A stretch of 51,078 bases of DNA, from positions 1 to 51,078 of the forward strand of contig JAJECN010000062.1 in assembly GCA_022821965.1 (NCBI GenBank). Reading direction: 5' to 3'. The position numbers were made by a program, and so were the translations under genes. Source of the stretch: Candidatus Poribacteria bacterium (GTDB lineage: Bacteria > Poribacteria > WGA-4E > WGA-3G). This document shows, in pieces, positions 40,220 to 51,013 of this stretch (positions within the stretch are counted from its first letter, which is position 1; each line of letters opens with the position of its first letter). The notes under the pieces were generated by a model. That model was not told the origin of the DNA. It saw only the letters and a list, made by a program, of their open reading frames with translations, and ran no database searches.

Positions 40220-41500
40220 CTATGCGGCAGTTTTTCCTACCCAAGATTGATCCGATCGAAATTCTCCCATTTCGTCGTAAAGGTCATGCAACCGCTTGAT
40301 TGCGTCTATTTCGAGTTGTCTGACGCGTTCTCGGGTAACTTTCAGGGCAACACCAATTTCGCGGAGTGTTTTCCGTTCTCCATCTTCGAGTCCAAAGCGC
40401 ATTTTCAGCACTCTCTGTTCTCGCTCAGGTAATCTTTTAAGAAATTGGGCGGTCAGATCTTTGTTAATTATTTCTGCGATCGGGCCGTCTTCTCCGCTGG
40501 TTGTTGGGTCTTCGATTAAATCACCTAATGTGGCGGCGGAGCGCTCATCGCTGAGTGGTAAATCCATTGAAATAGCGTCAGCGTTGAACGTTAAAATTTC
40601 CTCAACCTGTTTTACTGTCAGGTCTAAGGCTTCCGCTATTTCCTCACGCCGTGGTTCGCGTTGCAGTTCTTGGCACAATGTCGCATAAACAGCATCGAAC
40701 TTATTCATCTTCGCAACCACGTAAGAAGGCAATCGAATCGAGCGGGAGAAATTGTCGAGCGTACGCATAATTGCCTGTTTAATCCACCAGATAGCGTACG
40801 TACTGAATTTAAAACCCTTCTGGTAATCGAACTTACTTGCTGCTTTAATCAGTCCAATGTTTCCCTCTTGAATCAGATCTTCAAGTGGGACGTTGTGCCC
40901 CTGGTATTTGACGGCAATAGAAATAACAAGTCGTAGGTTCGCTTGAACGAGTTCATCTCGTGCTTTTCGTGCTTCGCCTTCCGCGGCTTCAATCCGTTTC
41001 GCCAGTAACTCTTTCTCTTTACTGGATAATGAATTCACTTTCACGAGTGCTTTTAGTAGTTCATCTACGAGTGCTTTCCGTGCTTCACATCTGCCAGCTT
41101 CAATCTGTTCCGCCAGTAGCTCTTTCTTCTCGCGAACTAATAAATCTACTTTCACGAGTGCTTCCAGTAGTTCATCTAATACTTTGGCTTCCGCGGCTTC
41201 AATTTGCTTGACCAGTAGCTCTTTCTTCTCGCGAACTAATAAATCTGCTTTCACGGATGCTTCCAGTAGTTCATCTAATGCTTTGGCTTCCGCGGCTTCA
41301 ATCCGTTTTGCCAATTCAACTTCTTCCTCACGCGTTAAAAGACGGTGTCCAGCTACACTCCGAAGCCAACTCGTTAAAGCACTCTGATCACTTCCTTTGT
41401 AACTCTCCGAGGGCTCTGTTTCATCTGCTGGATATGATGCGTCCATGTAAGGATCAACACTTTCAATACTTGCTGTTTCACCGAAAAACTCGGCTTCCAT
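40220..41500 (-). CDS. rpoD: RpoD-family sigma factor with a repeat insertion
   Basis: A 426-residue sigma-70-type factor. Regions 2 (about 181-250: [56 protein letters not shown]), 3 (257-330) and 4 (355-415, ending [27 protein letters not shown]) are all intact. Region 1.2 is recognisable ([30 protein letters not shown]), but instead of running straight on into region 2 it is interrupted by about four copies of a 33-37 residue helical unit ([31 protein letters not shown]), about 110 extra residues. Region 1.1 is short. AGGAG precedes the ATG. It is probably a primary or group 2 sigma; the insertion is discussed in the findings. Confidence 0.85.
40970..41317 (-). repeat. Tandem in-frame repeat inside the sigma factor gene
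   Basis: About four direct repeats of 99 bases (one unit longer) within the coding sequence. The block TCTTTCTTCT begins at 41121 and again at 41220, 99 bases apart, and the flanking 60 or so bases also match with few changes. The reading frame is kept, giving units such as [19 protein letters not shown] and [20 protein letters not shown]. Confidence 0.85.
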
Positions 41501-42433: not shown

Positions 42434-44377
42434 CTACCGTCTACCTTCTACGAGAGCATCCACAACTGTGGGGTCGGCGAGGGTTGAAGTATCACCGAGT
42501 TCAGAGATGTCGCCTTCAGCAATTTTGCGGAGGATACGTCGCATAATCTTACCCGACCTCGTCTTCGGCAGTGCGGGTGTAAACTGGATCTTGTCCGGTG
42601 TTGCGATAGGTCCAATCTGTTGTCGGACTGCCTGTTTGATGCCTGTTTCTACATCGTCAGATGCGGATTCACCTGTCATGAGGGTAACATACGCGTAGAT
42701 ACCTTGTCCCTTGATGTCGTGTGGGTAACCAACAACCGCTGCTTCCGCCACCGCCGCGTGTTGACCAATTGCGCCTTCAACCTCTGCTGTCCCTAAACGG
42801 TGTCCAGAAACATTCAGAACATCGTCCACGCGCCCTGTAATCCAGTAGTAACCATCTTCATCGCGTAGCACCCCATCACCCGTCATATAGTAGCCCGGGA
42901 ATCGACGAAAATAGGTATCTAAAAACCGCTCATGGTCCCCGTAAACAGTGCGCATGATACCGGGCCACGCTGTTTTAATACACAGATAACCCGTCGCTGG
43001 GTTGCCTTCAACCTCATTCCCCTCCTCATCTAATATCACCGGCTCAATGCCGAAAAACGGAAACGTCGCCGAACCGGGTTTCAGTGGTGTTGCAGCAGGT
43101 AGAGGAGTCATTAGAATCCCACCCGTTTCGGTCTGCCACCATGTATCCACGATTGGGCACCGTTTCTCACCGACGATGTTGTAGTACCACAACCACTCCG
43201 GCTCTTTAATCGGTTCACCCACTGTGCCGAGCAACCTAAGCGTAGATCTGTCATACTTCTCGACCCATGAGTCCCCCTCCTTCATCAAAGCACGTAGAGC
43301 CGTTGGGGCGGTGTAAAAGATGTTAATGTTATGCTTCTCGACGACTTGCCAAAATCGTCCGAAGTCTGGATAGTTTGGTACACCTTCAAACATGATGCTA
43401 ACCGCACGATTGGCAAGGGGACCATAGATAATGTAAGAGTGTCCGGTAATCCAACCGATATCGGCGGTACACCAATAGACGTCACCTTCGTGATAATCGA
43501 AGACCTGTTGATGCGTATAAGATGTATAAACGAGATAGCCACCAGTCGTATGTAAAACGCCCTTCGGTTTTCCCGTTGAACCAGAGGTATACAGAATAAA
43601 GAGCGGATCTTCCGCATTCATCACTGTTGGTTCGCATTCTGCGTCAGCATCTGCCATCGTTTCATGCCACCAGATATCGCGTGAGGCATCAAAATCGACT
43701 GCATCTCCAGTGCGTTCCACGACGACCACCTTTTCAATAGAGGGGCATTCTGCCACAGCGGCATCTGCATTTGCCTTCATCGGTATATCGCTACGCGGAC
43801 CCCGCATTGCAGTGTCCTGTGTTATAAGCATTTTACATGCCGAGTCATTAATCCTGTCTCGGAGGGATTCGGCTGAAAAAGCACCGAAGACGATGGAGTG
43901 AACAGCACCGATCCTGGCACACGCCAGCATTGCAATCGCCAGCTCTGGGACCATCTGTAGATAAATGCAGACACGATCACCTTTTTCAATGCCTTGCGCT
44001 TTTAACACATTTGCAAACTTTTTGACTTCGGCGAGGAGTTCGCTGAAACTGAACGTCTTATCTTCGGATGGGTCATTTCCCTCCCAAATAATAGCGGTTG
44101 CATCACCGTGTCCAGCTTCTACATGTCGATCGAGGCAGTTATAGCAAGCGTTTAGTGTGCCACCCTCAAACCATTTAATCTCAGCGTTAACAAAGTCGTA
44201 ATTGCTAACCGTATCCCATTTCTGATACCACGTCAACCGTTCCGCAACCGTTGCCCAGAACGCTTCCGGGTCTTGAATGGATTCGGCGTATTGTGTCTGA
44301 TATGTGTCCAGACTGTTGACGTGCGCGTTATCGATTGGATAAGCAGTTTCTACCGGTGAAAAAATATTGTTAGCCAT
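42434..44377 (-). CDS. acs: Acetyl-CoA synthetase
   Basis: A 647-residue AMP-forming acetate-CoA ligase. Motifs include the P-loop-like [15 protein letters not shown], the adenylate site [11 protein letters not shown]-type segment ([18 protein letters not shown]), [36 protein letters not shown] and the C-terminal [19 protein letters not shown] whose lysine is regulated by acetylation in other bacteria. It activates acetate for central metabolism. The length and motifs are typical and nothing is missing. A GGAG lies shortly before the ATG. Upstream, 44378-44460 contains no clear regulator site. Confidence 0.95.
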
Positions 44378-44567: not shown

Positions 44568-44921
44568 ATGAGAGAAATGGGGAACTGGCGCGAGTATCAA
44601 ATTAGAAGACTTGCTAATGATCGGGAGGCAGCGATTGACTATCTCCAATTGACCTTAGAGGAATACCATGCTGATGGCGATCTGGCCTTCTTCCTGAAGG
44701 AGCTTCGGTTCTTTATAGAATCACAAGGCGGAGTTGTTGAAATTTGCAAACGAATTGGTATTGATACCGAAACGCTTTTAAATATGTTCTCTAATGAGGA
44801 TGCTACACAATTATTGGATACGTTCAGCTCTTTGTTGAACGCGCTTAAGCACCCTCCGGTGATTGAAGATGCACACGCTAAGCATCTGGCACCTGCGAAA
44901 CAGATTCCAACCAGTCAATAG
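44568..44921 (+). CDS. HigA-like antitoxin / HTH protein, possibly orphan
   Basis: A 117-residue protein matching the probable addiction module antidote family (an XRE/HigA relative): LANDREAAIDYLQLTLEEYHADGD, FFLKELRFFIESQGGVVEICKRIGIDTETLLNMFSNED and LDTFSSLLNAL, with the HTH in the middle third. Usually such a gene follows a RelE-type toxin gene, but there is none on either side here. Its last residues (KQIPTSQ) are encoded by a copy of a sequence found again at 47495-47570, so the 3' end seems to have been fused to that sequence during a rearrangement. It may autoregulate, as related antitoxins do. GAGGAG lies upstream of the ATG. Confidence 0.75.
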   Translation: MREMGNWREYQIRRLANDREAAIDYLQLTLEEYHADGDLAFFLKELRFFIESQGGVVEICKRIGIDTETLLNMFSNEDATQLLDTFSSLLNALKHPPVIEDAHAKHLAPAKQIPTSQ

Positions 44922-44972
44922 CAGTTTGTTCATCCTTTTCAATGGCGATTTCCACTGCTCGCTTTGCACATT
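44897..44972. repeat. Direct repeat copy 1 flanking the NACHT gene
   Basis: Positions 44897-44972 match 47495-47570 with about 8 mismatches in 76 bases, same orientation. The matched sequence is the 3' end of the gene at 47491 (minus strand), so this copy is a truncated gene end lying beyond the antitoxin. Together the two copies bracket the NACHT gene. Confidence 0.85.
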
Positions 44973-45080
44973 TGGTCTAATGAGCAGTTCTGTTAATAGA
45001 AATCCACCGGCACATCCGTTATTTTTCATAGATTTTCGTTCGGTTAACATTGGATTTAAATTGAAACAGGTAGGTAAGCA

Positions 45081-46334
45081 ATGCTTGAGAAGATTGGAAT
45101 CGGGATTTTAACAAAGGCGGTTTCAGAATTTTCAAAAGAAGCCTGGGAACGCCTTAAAAATAAACGCCAACGTTCAAAAAACGCCTCTCACGATTACAAC
45201 AGTCCCTACAAGAAACGTCACGGTCAACTCCAAGCCTTCTGCGTTGGAATGGAAGAGAAGAGATCGGTTGACGACCTTTATGTAGTCGCTCAGTTCTTGG
45301 CTAAAAGGAAAGCAACAAAGCATAACTCTACCGAAGACATTGGAAGGGTATTTCTGCAGAAAGGTAGAGGGTATTTCACTTCAACTTCAGATGAACGCCA
45401 AGACGGGATGAGGGTTGCCACTAACGAACAGTATCTGATGGTGCTCGGAGTTCCCGGTGTCGGAAAATCGACCTTTCTGCGCAAGATTGGACTTGAAGCA
45501 CTGAAAGGAGAGGATGGGAATTTAGAGCACCAATGTATCCCAGTTTTTCTTGAACTGAAGCGATTCACCGAGGATCCGATTGATATTGAGGCATGGATTA
45601 TTGACGAGTTTAAGATATGTGGTCATCCAGATCCTGAGCAGTGGGCAAAGTCTAAGTTGGAAGCGGGTGAACTGTTAATACTTTTTGATGGTCTTGACGA
45701 GGTGCCGGAATCAAACCTTAACAACGTCATCAATAAAATTACGGATTTCGTCCATCAATATAGCCGAAACCGCTTTATTGCTTCCTGCCGGGTAGGAGCA
45801 TACAAGGGAGGACTTACAGATTTCGCTGTAGTGGAGATGGCAGATTTTGATGATTCACAAATTCAGGCGTATATCAACAATTGGTTTGCATCAGCGTCCG
45901 ATCAAAAGAAGAAAACTGCCCAACGGTGTTGGCAAGCATTGAATGATCCAGAGCATCAAGCAATTAAGGAATTAGCACAGAATCCTTTATCACTCGCGCT
46001 GTTGTGTCAGGTTTATGAAGACTCACAAGATTTTCCATCAAGTGAAACGATCTTGTATGGAAAAATTCTTAACATTTTTCTCAAAAAGTGGACAGCAGAG
46101 AAGCATGTTCATAGAGACCCACCAATGAGTCCGTATTTGGCTATCCCGACTGTAAAGGAGCCACTTTCTGAAATTGCAGCAGAGAATTTTAAGGCAGACC
46201 GTCTTGTTTTCAGTGAGGACGAACTCACCAATCAGATTCAGGAATTTTACCAGCGTAGGACCGATATATCCTCAAGATTTGATGCTTCCGGAATCTTAGA
46301 CGCAATTCTTGTGGATCCAGGACTTTTTCGTTGA
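45081..46334 (+). CDS. NACHT-domain NTPase, N-terminal part of frameshifted gene
   Basis: 417 residues of a STAND-type NTPase. After an unassigned N-terminal region (1-110) come Walker A GVPGVGKST at 123-131, Walker B LLILFDGLDEV at 198-208, RNRFIASCR, VVEMADFDDSQIQAYINNWF and NPLSLALLCQVYED, a set diagnostic of NACHT proteins of bacteria that defend against phages. It stops after LVDPGLFR, while the next frame continues the protein with WIQDFFVERANGIYTFFHLTFQEYL, so one base too many (extra T in the run at 46324-46328) breaks it. The ATG at 45081 is preceded by AGGT. Confidence 0.8.
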   Translation: MLEKIGIGILTKAVSEFSKEAWERLKNKRQRSKNASHDYNSPYKKRHGQLQAFCVGMEEKRSVDDLYVVAQFLAKRKATKHNSTEDIGRVFLQKGRGYFTSTSDERQDGMRVATNEQYLMVLGVPGVGKSTFLRKIGLEALKGEDGNLEHQCIPVFLELKRFTEDPIDIEAWIIDEFKICGHPDPEQWAKSKLEAGELLILFDGLDEVPESNLNNVINKITDFVHQYSRNRFIASCRVGAYKGGLTDFAVVEMADFDDSQIQAYINNWFASASDQKKKTAQRCWQALNDPEHQAIKELAQNPLSLALLCQVYEDSQDFPSSETILYGKILNIFLKKWTAEKHVHRDPPMSPYLAIPTVKEPLSEIAAENFKADRLVFSEDELTNQIQEFYQRRTDISSRFDASGILDAILVDPGLFR

Positions 46335-47451
46335 AAGGGCTAACGGTATCTACACCTTCTTTCACCTAACGTTTCAGGAGTATTTAACGGCGAATCACAT
46401 CGTAGGAGACACGCCTTCAATTCAGAATCCGGTGAATCAGCATTTATATTATTGGCAGTGGGAAAAAGTCTTATTACTAACCGATTCAGTTCAGGATCTG
46501 GTGAATCAGCATTTATATCATCCGCTGTGGCGAAGAGTCTTCTTATTCACCGCTGGCCTGATGCGCGAAGTAGACGGTTTGCTTTTCGCAATGGAAGCGG
46601 AAGCCGTTGAGTACATTGATTCCTACGAACTCGAAGGACTGCTCCGATGGGCAGAAAAGATCACAGATGGCCCAAATAATCAATACAACAAAATTACCAG
46701 ACGACTATTTGCCATCCGCCAATTCATTTCCCTATGGATGCTCAACCAAATTTATGAAGAGGTCGACAATATTATCAATGACGACCCAGACTATGACGAC
46801 CCAGACTATGACGACTTAGAACTTGATTGGAGTAACTACAAGGACTTTGAATTCTACCATTACCTTGACCTGGGCCAAGGTCTCTGCCCAGGATTCGACC
46901 AAGACCTCTACCAAGGTCGCGCCCAAAACTTTTTATCCACACAAAATTACCGTGGACTCAACCGATACCGAGACCTCTACCTTGACCTCTGCTGGAAGTC
47001 CGATATCGAAAAAGATCCCTACACAAACCTCTATCAAGATATTTACCGTATGAATTCTAATTTCTATCCTCCTAGATTTTCTAAGTTCGGAGATCAGTTC
47101 AGCAGAGAATTGGACAATCGAATAGCGGTTGTTGAGCGTATGGAACAGATGAAAATTTTCAATGGTGTGGATTTACAACGGATGGTTCAGCGGTTTAAGG
47201 CACAACGGGAATTCGTCACAGCAGCAGATGAAGGGGAATCTGTTAAACCACCAACGGAATCTATTCACGACACATGGCTTTCGGTTTTGGGTATCACCAA
47301 TAACATGCTCAATATTTCACACGAGGAGTTAGGTTGCTATGTCATGTATATTGAGGCAATGGAACTTATCTTCGCGTGCAAAGCATCTGGACGTGTTTCA
47401 CCTGAAGTATGGCAGAAAATTGAAAAGAAGCTTCTGGCTTCAGGAACATAA
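46309..47451 (+). CDS. NACHT-domain NTPase, C-terminal part of frameshifted gene
   Basis: 380 residues that continue the NACHT protein. It begins with the helical segment FFVERANGIYTFFHLTFQEYLTANHIV, normally directly joined to the preceding frame. A 69-base tandem duplication (starting near 46431 and repeating from 46500) gives VNQHLYYWQWEKVLLLTDSVQDL and VNQHLYHPLWRRVFLFTAGLM. A 15-base DNA repeat gives DDPDYDDPDYDD. The region 46850-47050 is rich in Asp, Leu and Tyr (YRDLYLDLC, TNLYQDIYR), looking like diverging short repeats. The C-terminal 100 residues are helical. Taken with the first part, the intact protein would be about 790 residues. Confidence 0.75.
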   Translation: MWIQDFFVERANGIYTFFHLTFQEYLTANHIVGDTPSIQNPVNQHLYYWQWEKVLLLTDSVQDLVNQHLYHPLWRRVFLFTAGLMREVDGLLFAMEAEAVEYIDSYELEGLLRWAEKITDGPNNQYNKITRRLFAIRQFISLWMLNQIYEEVDNIINDDPDYDDPDYDDLELDWSNYKDFEFYHYLDLGQGLCPGFDQDLYQGRAQNFLSTQNYRGLNRYRDLYLDLCWKSDIEKDPYTNLYQDIYRMNSNFYPPRFSKFGDQFSRELDNRIAVVERMEQMKIFNGVDLQRMVQRFKAQREFVTAADEGESVKPPTESIHDTWLSVLGITNNMLNISHEELGCYVMYIEAMELIFACKASGRVSPEVWQKIEKKLLASGT

Positions 47452-47490
47452 AGAACACACGAAGTTCTCACATCCGAAATACCAAGGAGA

Positions 47491-47841
47491 CTATGAAACA
47501 GATTCCAACCAATTGATAGCAGTTTGTTCGTCTTGTTCAATGGCGATTTCGACGGCTCGCTTTGCACATTCCAGAAGGTCTTTAGCGTGCTTGCGTAAGT
47601 TAAAAAGAATGATATCCTTGAGCATAAAACGCTCGTTGAGGATATCCGCCAAAGTCTGATCAGCGTTAGAAATATCGGTAATATCTTCAAAGTAGTTTGG
47701 ATCTCTTCGGTAGTATTGACGGATAAGTTCTTCAGGTTTTAGTTGGATGGCCTTCCCTTGAATAGGGCAGTAGGTGATGGGTGTTTTTTTACCTTCTATC
47801 CTTTTATAAGAGGTAACGGGATTCTGATGATAGAATTCCAT
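47491..47841 (-). CDS. Hypothetical protein, third gene of the R-M-like operon
   Basis: A 116-residue protein with no family I recognise. It starts MEFYHQNPVTSYKRIEGKKTPITYCPIQGKAIQLKPEELIRQYYRRD and ends with helical RKHAKDLLECAKRAVEIAIEQDEQTAINWLESVS. The YCPIQGKAIQLKPEE part resembles an N-terminal motif of several restriction-related proteins, but this is impression only. It overlaps the 3' end of the previous gene by 38 bases, so translation is coupled. Its last 76 bases are duplicated at 44897-44972 on the other side of the NACHT gene. Confidence 0.6.
   Translation of the reverse strand: MEFYHQNPVTSYKRIEGKKTPITYCPIQGKAIQLKPEELIRQYYRRDPNYFEDITDISNADQTLADILNERFMLKDIILFNLRKHAKDLLECAKRAVEIAIEQDEQTAINWLESVS
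47495..47570. repeat. Direct repeat copy 2 flanking the NACHT gene
   Basis: This is the in-place copy, forming the 3' end of the gene at 47491 (minus strand). It is about 90 percent identical by eye to 44897-44972 and lies 2.6 kb from it, with the NACHT gene between. Confidence 0.85.
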
Positions 47842-48322
47842 ACTCTCTACATTTGTCGATTATTATTTTCCTATCTTTACAGTTTTCTAAAATATCATAA
47901 TTTTCCTTCAAATCCGCGATCTTGTTAATGGAAATGCTTTTCTGATTGAGTTCCTCAATAAGAATCGTCGGAACAAAGTAGAGTTCAAAAGCGTTATTGC
48001 CTGCTGGATGAACTCCAATAACAACATCTGAGGTTGCAGTGGACTGGGTATAAGTCTTAACGTCCGATTTATACTCTCTATCAACTCCACCTCTACCTCC
48101 ACCAGTAAAGGGTACTGATTGTTTTGCTGTTTTGACTTGCGCGCGAATTATGTCCTCACTATCATCTGCCTTTTTAAGGACAATGATGATGTCATAAGGT
48201 GATAAAGGTAGATCGACCAACGAAACGTTCTGGTATCTTTTCATTAAAATTCCAGCAGCGATATGCTCATGAGCAAATCCATCAACCGATGCCTGCCTGC
48301 CTCTCTCTTCTATATTAACCAT
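47804..48322 (-). CDS. Putative restriction endonuclease partner of the methyltransferase
   Basis: A 172-residue protein with a plausible PD-(D/E)XK-like core: Glu18 in HEHIAAGIL, Asp44 in SPYDIIIVLKK and Gln62-Val-Lys64 in RAQVKTAKQS. The glycine-rich VPFTGGGRGGVDREY follows, then TSDVVIGVHPAGNNAFELYFVP, the strand and helix order of many endonucleases. Family assignment is inferred from residues and from its place: it overlaps the methyltransferase end by 8 bases and the small third gene by 38. I cannot name the recognition sequence. Confidence 0.55.
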   Translation of the reverse strand: MVNIEERGRQASVDGFAHEHIAAGILMKRYQNVSLVDLPLSPYDIIIVLKKADDSEDIIRAQVKTAKQSVPFTGGGRGGVDREYKSDVKTYTQSTATSDVVIGVHPAGNNAFELYFVPTILIEELNQKSISINKIADLKENYDILENCKDRKIIIDKCREYGILSSESRYLL

Positions 48323-49735: not shown

Positions 49736-51013
49736 TTATGCTGCCTTGTCAAAAGGCAGGGCTGTATCGTCTTGAAAACGAACATTAATATTCTGCGAGT
49801 TTGTTTTTTCTTTGAACTTGGCAGAAAATGTTGAGACCGCTATTTGCGAACGGAGATAAGCCACCCGTAAGCCCTGTGTGAGTTTTCGAGGGCGATACCA
49901 ATGAATACCAAGATGTTGACAGACCTTCTCAACACTTATCTCCTTCTGCGGAGCATCGCCGGACGTGAATACCAACTTCGTCAGACTTGCTGCAACGAAA
50001 CTGAGTTGGACGAACCGATTGATGCTCTTGCGAGATTTGGTGCGATAGGTATCGAATCCGAAGTGCTCTTTGGCATCTCGAAAGGCAGTTTCTATCTGCC
50101 ACCTATGTTGATAGTGCTTGATGATTTTCGGGATCTCAAGCGTCAAATCTGTTGTAAAGACGCAGAAATACCGATACGGTTTTGAGACTTTCGGACGTTT
50201 GCGGATGATGACGAGTCGGACATCAGCATCACACATCCTCGTCCGCACAATCTTTGAGGCAATCGAATAACTTTTGGTATCTATATCTGTGTCATTATAT
50301 CGCAGTCGGCGAATATCAAGACGGTCTCCGTATTTTCTGGGTCTCCCGCGTTGGCGGTGCTTTGGTGGTTTTGGTAAACGATAGAAAACAGCATTAGATT
50401 TCGCACGACATAAGATATGATGTCCGAAACTTCGTGCCATTGTAAAAACTTTTCGCCGTGCGAAGCCACGGTCAAAGATAATAAGTCCCGGGGGAATCTT
50501 TGAACAGATACGCTTCAGCACCGCCTGACTTTTATCGCGGAGCGTCTGTGGCACAATGAGTTTCACCCAGACGGGGAAGAGATGCCAGCGTGTCGCAGTC
50601 TGACACAATAAACCTAACGCCCCAAACTCGTGTCCGTAATGAAACTTCGATTGATTTACGCGATGCTTTTGATAACCGCAGTTGCGGAAAAAATGCAGAC
50701 CCCATTGTGTTTTGCCAGTCTTGAGTGCCTTGGTCTCATCATAGACATAAACCCACTCCATAAAAAGATGTTGGATACGTCTGATGAGAAGTGCTGAGAC
50801 GGCATCGGCACTCCATTTCCCCCGGGAGAGGAACTTCGGAAATGACCAATACTTGGTTTGCGAAGCACTCGATTGATAAAGTTCCGTCAGTGTTCCATTG
50901 CCTCTGTTAGCGATGAACCCGAAGATAAACGCTTGGAAAAGTGCGAAGTTTTGTTGATTGAATAAATGCCGAAAATCCGATAGAATACTTTCTAAGCAGA
51001 AAAGGAGGTCCAT
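49736..51013 (-). CDS. IS4-superfamily DDE transposase
   Basis: A 425-residue DDE transposase. The catalytic residues are Asp92 in YVYDETKALKTG, Asp181 in LIIFDRGFARRK and Glu308 in YQHRWQIETAFRDAK, where the last also fits the Y-x2-R-x3-E-x6-K (YREK) signature of IS4-type elements. A basic central block (RQRGRPRKYG) lies between. It looks intact. AAGGAA precedes the ATG. The element's right end may continue beyond the window, and I could not resolve a matching inverted repeat in the left flank, 49623-49735. Confidence 0.88.
   Translation of the reverse strand: MDLLFCLESILSDFRHLFNQQNFALFQAFIFGFIANRGNGTLTELYQSSASQTKYWSFPKFLSRGKWSADAVSALLIRRIQHLFMEWVYVYDETKALKTGKTQWGLHFFRNCGYQKHRVNQSKFHYGHEFGALGLLCQTATRWHLFPVWVKLIVPQTLRDKSQAVLKRICSKIPPGLIIFDRGFARRKVFTMARSFGHHILCRAKSNAVFYRLPKPPKHRQRGRPRKYGDRLDIRRLRYNDTDIDTKSYSIASKIVRTRMCDADVRLVIIRKRPKVSKPYRYFCVFTTDLTLEIPKIIKHYQHRWQIETAFRDAKEHFGFDTYRTKSRKSINRFVQLSFVAASLTKLVFTSGDAPQKEISVEKVCQHLGIHWYRPRKLTQGLRVAYLRSQIAVSTFSAKFKEKTNSQNINVRFQDDTALPFDKAA

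Follow-up and report, generated by a model that had tools for sequence, protein, structure and literature searches.

Ends of the restriction-specificity gene hsdS bracket a NACHT gene in Candidatus Poribacteria and probably mark exchange of neighbouring defence-type genes

The window analysed here, positions 1–51,078 of contig JAJECN010000062.1, belongs to Candidatus Poribacteria, a sponge-symbiont bacterium whose assembled genome (own genome, G000) comprises 5.69 Mb and is 95% complete. Within it, a gene for a NACHT NTPase (PF05729, E = 2.4e-15) lies between two direct copies of a short sequence at 44897–44972 and 47495–47570. The copies are 76 nt long, agree at 68/76 positions (89%, 8 differences) and are spaced 2598 bases apart. 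With the 110-base right end as query, the left copy was recovered from the own genome at E = 1e-22, well above chance level; the right copy reaches to about 47601 (108 bp), and the left copy is truncated within that length. The left copy also encodes the last codons of an antitoxin-like open reading frame (ORF) at 44568–44921. The original prediction, made from the bare sequence, thus held for the repeat and its coordinates, for the enclosed gene and for the antitoxin end. By sequence, each copy consists of the final codons of hsdS, which encodes the specificity subunit of a type I-like restriction-modification (RM) system. Comparison with relatives shows that different defence-type genes replace one another next to the hsdS end, probably via ordinary homologous recombination, with stubs of hsdS left behind as scars. 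The features at the locus are:

42434–44377, minus strand: acs (acetyl-CoA synthetase), single copy in the family, conserved left flank of the hotspot
44568–44921, plus strand: orphan HI1420-type antitoxin-like gene (PF21716 match weak, below cut-off), its last ~25 bases overlapping the hsdS stub
44897–44972, minus strand: left stub, truncated 3' end of a former hsdS with the antitoxin as downstream neighbour
44973–45080, plus strand: upstream region of the NACHT unit; homology starts at 44968–44972 in L053, L040, L044, L077 and L079
45081–47451, plus strand: NACHT NTPase gene with NCH2-like C-terminus, disrupted into ORFs 45081–46334 and 46309–47451
47494–47601, minus strand: right tail, 3' end of a second hsdS allele; the NACHT end is 43 bp away, as with several intact hsdS genes
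47491–47841, minus strand: 116-aa ORF, in-frame fusion of two pieces of the hsdM N-terminus and the hsdS tail

The hsdS origin of the two copies

Relatives were available mostly as fragmented metagenome-assembled genomes (MAGs). A search of 59 family genomes with the hsdS C-terminus returned about 90 places (numbered L), whose regions were gene-mapped, every tail located and the junctions aligned. In these relatives, the repeat is the C-terminus of hsdS genes of 450–500 aa (PF01420). The tail-owning gene carries a Methylase_S domain (PF01420; E 6.6e-11 for the L005 hsdS), and many PADLOC Specificity_I models match such genes. Contig C20 of the own genome holds two further copies, 1.3 kb apart with a DUF4238 gene between them; the copy beside intact genes forms the 3' end of the gene for a 471-aa Methylase_S protein (HsdS), which lies downstream of the gene for a 787-aa HsdM, an N6_Mtase protein with an HSDR_N_2 domain. 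The window copies include no intact target-recognition domain: the left is a 76-bp stub, the right the last 36 codons fused to hsdM. At L005 (10609–12972), the HsdM consists of an HSDR_N_2 domain fused to a methyltransferase (N6_Mtase), as in RM+S enzymes, and no hsdR gene is present in the operon; the system may function in the manner of BcgI-like RM+S enzymes (type IIB/IIG). Six SWI2_SNF2 matches lie elsewhere in the own genome, outside the L005 operon.

The right copy had been described as the true end of a small gene of an RM-like operon. It is a gene end, yet the gene is not a regular RM gene. The N-terminal part of the 116-aa product matches hsdM frames of ~700 aa and its last 40 residues match hsdS frames of 460–500 aa, while no whole-length match was found among the proteins of 97 other genomes; the ORF is therefore an hsdM–hsdS deletion fusion. 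Its hsdM segments, 47715–47804 and 47605–47718, which are separated by about 250 bp in relatives, adjoin in the window, with the hsdS tail coming next. Both deletions are in frame, which could reflect selection or luck. Further hsdM–hsdS deletion fusions with a breakpoint near AACTTACGC occur at L092 (7871–7972) and L095 (3577–3672), where the first ~10 hsdM codons are joined straight to the hsdS tail.

The left copy has a different history. At L034, L045, L056, L067, L068 and L076, where NACHT is absent, the antitoxin overlaps by 22–25 bp with an hsdS that is long or of full length. Because the left copy of the window shares exactly this antitoxin side, it is the stub of an earlier hsdS of another allele rather than a duplicate of the right copy, and the supply of the last antitoxin codons by an hsdS end is an old convergent-overlap feature, not a consequence of NACHT arrival. 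In relatives such as L034, the antitoxin is preceded by a RelE/ParE-type toxin of the HI1419 family (Gp49; TIGR02683, 120.9 bits), which is missing from the window.

The alternative offered by the original prediction, a duplication with deletion that, on insertion of NACHT, placed a copy of the right gene's 3' end on the left of the insert, would account for the direct orientation and the 89% identity of the window copies. It did not survive comparison with relatives and we regard it as very improbable: tails within one locus are no more alike (74.7% identity) than tails of unrelated loci (76.7%), the outer flank of the left copy is the flank of hsdS in relatives without NACHT, and the distance between each copy and the gene downstream of it is the one found where hsdS is intact. 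Diversification by a diversity-generating retroelement, with a template and a variable repeat at the 3' end of a gene, was also considered and dropped, as most of the 8 differences are synonymous codon changes and not adenine-directed.

Alternative cargo and the acs site

Directly 3' of hsdS genes or stubs, relatives carry a variety of cargo: the antitoxin (with its toxin in relatives), NACHT, an AAA_21/AbiEii-type ATPase followed by a DUF4276-like protein, a trypsin-TIR-TPR protein, a 618-aa AAA_21 protein, DUF4238 and an HNH_2 protein. GmrSD_N and HATPase proteins are encoded one gene further from the hsdS end. A defence function of these genes is presumed. The trypsin-TIR-TPR family, found beside hsdS stubs in five loci, is represented at L092 (4881–7826) by a 981-aa protein with a trypsin-like peptidase, TPR, TIR and again TPR regions, a possible defence protein. 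Cargo orientation varies among loci. The distance from hsdS is cargo-specific, mostly −22/−25 bp for the antitoxin, −2 to 0 or 42–51 bp for NACHT and 88–99 bp for the 400-aa ATPase, and for these three the distances from stubs equal those from intact hsdS. Two tails within 6 kb of each other were found at 16 loci, all in direct and none in inverted orientation.

Short conserved hsdS ends could have produced chimeric joins in metagenome assemblies, given that the tails are repeats of ~100 bp and that most of the genomes are MAGs. We consider such an artefact scarcely credible: the same truncated junction is present in the window and in L099, which differ in assembly and in genus, the cargo spacings are constant across assemblies, and one bracket (L046) lies inside a single 5.34-Mb contig of genome G045.

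The acs gene, with one match each in 56/59 genomes, provides a fixed point for comparison. Of its loci, 51 had some flank and were surveyed, several flanks being very short. Eight carry NACHT (window, L035, L040, L073, L079, L086, L099 and L118), and in three of them (window, L035, L099) two tails are present. Another 16 have hsdS or a tail without NACHT, and 27 have neither, a few of the latter having very short flanks. The original prediction had proposed that NACHT arrived through recombination in a defence island and could be lost or exchanged as a cassette, and had named as its test relatives with one repeat copy and no NACHT gene; the 16 loci that keep hsdS or its 3' end are of this kind and support exchange as part of a cassette. 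NACHT brackets also occur off acs, or on contigs that stop short of it, at L042, L053 and L077, where the outer gene belongs to the trypsin-TIR-TPR family. The same inner junction, a 33-bp sequence plus the tail, is found with different outer flanks at acs and non-acs kinds of site, as expected if the outer edge of a cassette lies within the tail.

On its right, the window continues with the following genes:

47804–48322, minus strand: 172-aa protein, putative methyltransferase partner (endonuclease?), adjoining the methyltransferase in L061, L094, L117, L132 and L138
48315–49622, minus strand: 435-aa N6/N4 DNA methyltransferase (type II; PF01555 1e-21, MTase_II 1e-78), right flank
49736–51013, minus strand: IS701-family transposase gene (NF049999, 205.9 bits, over cut-off) at the contig end, a bystander

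Some of the 27 acs loci with neither hsdS nor NACHT hold this methyltransferase alone, with or without its 172-aa neighbour, and L117 has the antitoxin, the 172-aa gene and the methyltransferase, with only ~14 bases of the hsdS end remaining. The 172-aa protein has no significant family match and, coupled as it is to the methyltransferase, is possibly a restriction endonuclease of an unknown kind. Elsewhere in the window, a sigma-70-like factor gene (40220–41500) contains three to four tandem repeats of 99 bp (33 aa; 40970–41338) near its N-terminal part.

The NACHT gene of the window retains Walker A and B motifs (GVPGVGKST and LLILFDGLDE), whose core residues are invariant in six homologues; its match to the EruA model is far below cut-off. 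The gene is intact, encoding 756–802 aa, in L099, L035, L040, L044, L074 and L079. In the window, the frame is broken at about 46320, in a T-run (46318–46326) with one base more than in 10/10 aligned homologues, which is either a real frameshift or a sequencing or assembly error. With NACHT frameshifted and hsdM–hsdS reduced to a fusion, both intact elsewhere (L035, L040, L079), the window locus is a decayed example of its kind. Inside the gene, a 69-bp imperfect tandem duplication (46416–46552) is shared with L099 and L053 and absent from L035, L040, L044, L074 and L079; beyond it, homologues differ strongly in a low-complexity stretch rich in acidic residues and tyrosine (DPDYDD, DLYxDLY).

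Evidence for exchange at the hsdS end

Closely similar hsdS genes are followed by different cargo. The HsdS of L034, next to the antitoxin, and that of L035, next to NACHT, are 89% identical at the amino acid level, as are those of L040 (NACHT) and L045 (antitoxin) at 92%; NACHT is linked to several hsdS clusters. In six hsdS pairs, DNA identity is mostly 80–100% in the body of the gene, declines toward the 3' end and falls to 32–43% right after the stop codon. The last 36 residues rank with the most conserved parts of HsdS (0.72–0.80 vs ~0.4–0.5 in the target-recognition regions).

A second line of evidence comes from L099, which belongs to another genus of the same family and shares the antitoxin, the truncated stub, NACHT and the right tail with the window. 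DNA identity between the two is 85–97% per 200 bp within this block and ~80% in acs. Four-fold degenerate sites agree at 90% in antitoxin and NACHT, in contrast to 41.5% for acs, 26% for the gene beyond acs and 51% for the methyltransferase. As the NACHT protein is less identical (85–87%) than the acs product (92.6%), purifying selection on the protein is excluded as the cause of the higher DNA identity of the block. The gap at silent sites, about 90% against 26–51%, therefore indicates that the antitoxin–stub–NACHT–stub block moved as a unit; on this nucleotide evidence, its higher identity is explained by horizontal transfer, a result that further agrees with exchange as a cassette.

We favour a model, with a probability of about 0.78, in which the two copies are stubs of two hsdS alleles and cargo is exchanged by recombination at the conserved hsdS end. 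The unit would consist of hsdM, with its HSDR_N domain, and hsdS, together a type I-like RM system of two genes, followed by one of many alternative defence-type genes. The ~110-bp conserved hsdS end, common to alleles of any DNA specificity, would allow homologous recombination in or near it to join a new cargo gene, or a block of cargo plus hsdS, to the resident locus, and a stub from the end of the earlier hsdS would stay with the old cargo. At the window, an antitoxin–hsdS locus beside acs would have received a NACHT–hsdS block, giving antitoxin–stub–NACHT–hsdS; the spacer and part of the left stub would then have been deleted, a state common to the L099 locus in the other genus, and the antitoxin–stub–NACHT–stub block would have moved between the genera as a unit. 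The collapse of hsdM–hsdS to the 116-aa fusion and the NACHT frameshift, both in the window, would have come last. This order of events and RecA-type homologous recombination as the mechanism are inferred. Homologous recombination at the conserved end appears the simplest mechanism: no recombinase is encoded inside the bracket, and the own genome encodes a single tyrosine recombinase, on contig C10, and, in its 95% complete assembly, no serine recombinase. A ComEC-type protein is encoded in the own genome. Integron or phage-type site-specific integration was rejected, there being no nearby recombinase, no tRNA and no Rfam match.

Several observations weigh against this model. Many stubs begin at nearly the same hsdS base (AACTTACGC), a pattern not predicted by plain homologous recombination, and the first event, which placed a tail upstream of the cargo gene's own upstream region, is not reconstructed by it. 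Bracketing is also no prerequisite for NACHT, which has just the right tail in L040, L073, L079 and L086 and no tail in L118. The comparison also draws on genomes that are for the most part fragmented MAGs.

The recurrent stub boundary AACTTACGC resembles GGACTTACGCA, the terminal repeat of an abundant short element. Elements of this kind, ~118 bp long (e.g., G000:C3:44076–44193), account for 106 ends in the own genome. No transposase gene lies between the window copies. Site-specific or transposase mobilisation, in which the hsdS sequence AACTTACGCAAG serves as a pseudo-end for this element and cutting there moves hsdS ends and cargo, would draw on the frequency of GGACTTACGCA (106 occurrences vs 2 for a reversed control, often in inverted pairs ~107 bp apart), on the many stubs that start within a few bases of AACTTACGC with differing upstream sequences, and on the C20 stub, which starts TATAGGACTTACGCA. 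We nevertheless judge it improbable. The other edges of the units lie at the hsdS stop and differ with the cargo, and do not coincide with a second terminal repeat; near the C20 stub there is no further GGACTTACGCA, and no recombinase was found near the locus. Stubs with other starts also exist (L046, L059, L061, L072, L075, L088). Finally, the shared 33-bp upstream sequence was found attached to tails only, so several junctions may descend from one event. An origin of the left-tail upstream sequence in a dispersed repeat was rejected, since the 33 bp common to L035, L042, L053, L077, L093 and L096 were found next to tails only. A second upstream type (L036, L047, L100) also matches elsewhere, and in L046 it lies upstream of the cargo gene, away from the tail.

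A more speculative possibility, which we think doubtful, is that the hsdS 3' end acts as a docking site that renews itself, with each incoming hsdS–cargo block landing at or near AACTTACGC of the resident hsdS end and leaving a stub, the boundary being set by a specific cutting activity and not by chance crossover. If so, the loci would be stacked stub–cargo layers recording past defence genes.

Exchange at the hsdS end, as we favour it, would account for a class of repeat-bracketed genes in Poribacteria and provide a readable record of how integrase-free chromosomal defence genes are exchanged, with former hsdS neighbours legible from the stubs that were kept. It also suggests a search rule: candidate defence genes of unknown families may be sought past hsdS stop codons and past orphan hsdS 3' stubs. 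Proteins of 303, 362, 376 and 833 aa found here are examples.

Comparison with known systems

A search of open-licence papers turned up no account of cargo bracketed by hsdS 3' stubs. Integron gene cassettes are comparable in that diverse genes are each followed by a recurring sequence element in direct orientation. In Poribacteria, however, this element is protein-coding hsdS, cargo orientation varies, and the single tyrosine recombinase is encoded on another contig.

The shuffling of hsdS domains by recombination in conserved regions is classical (review PMC3874165). There, too, the exchanged module is flanked by conserved parts of hsdS, but the Poribacteria loci exchange the gene downstream of hsdS and not the target-recognition domain. 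Hotspots of defence islands are known from E. coli (PMC10121019) and resemble the site beside acs in combining a fixed chromosomal position with variable defence content. In contrast to these, the variable slot in Poribacteria is tied to an RM gene end, the RM gene itself turning over, and the slot recurs at other loci.

The nearest described case is exchange in the S. aureus islands vSa-alpha and vSa-beta, in which hsdM/hsdS and neighbouring defence genes (Avast type II, SMA) are exchanged via lateral transduction and homologous recombination (PMC12829572). In both settings, hsdS alleles and the defence genes next to hsdM/hsdS are exchanged together, and homologous recombination in the recipient makes the join, in Poribacteria as far as our model holds. 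They differ in that many cargo families share one slot in Poribacteria, and in that the Poribacteria seam lies at the hsdS stop codon, the old cargo keeping hsdS 3' stubs so that direct repeats accumulate.

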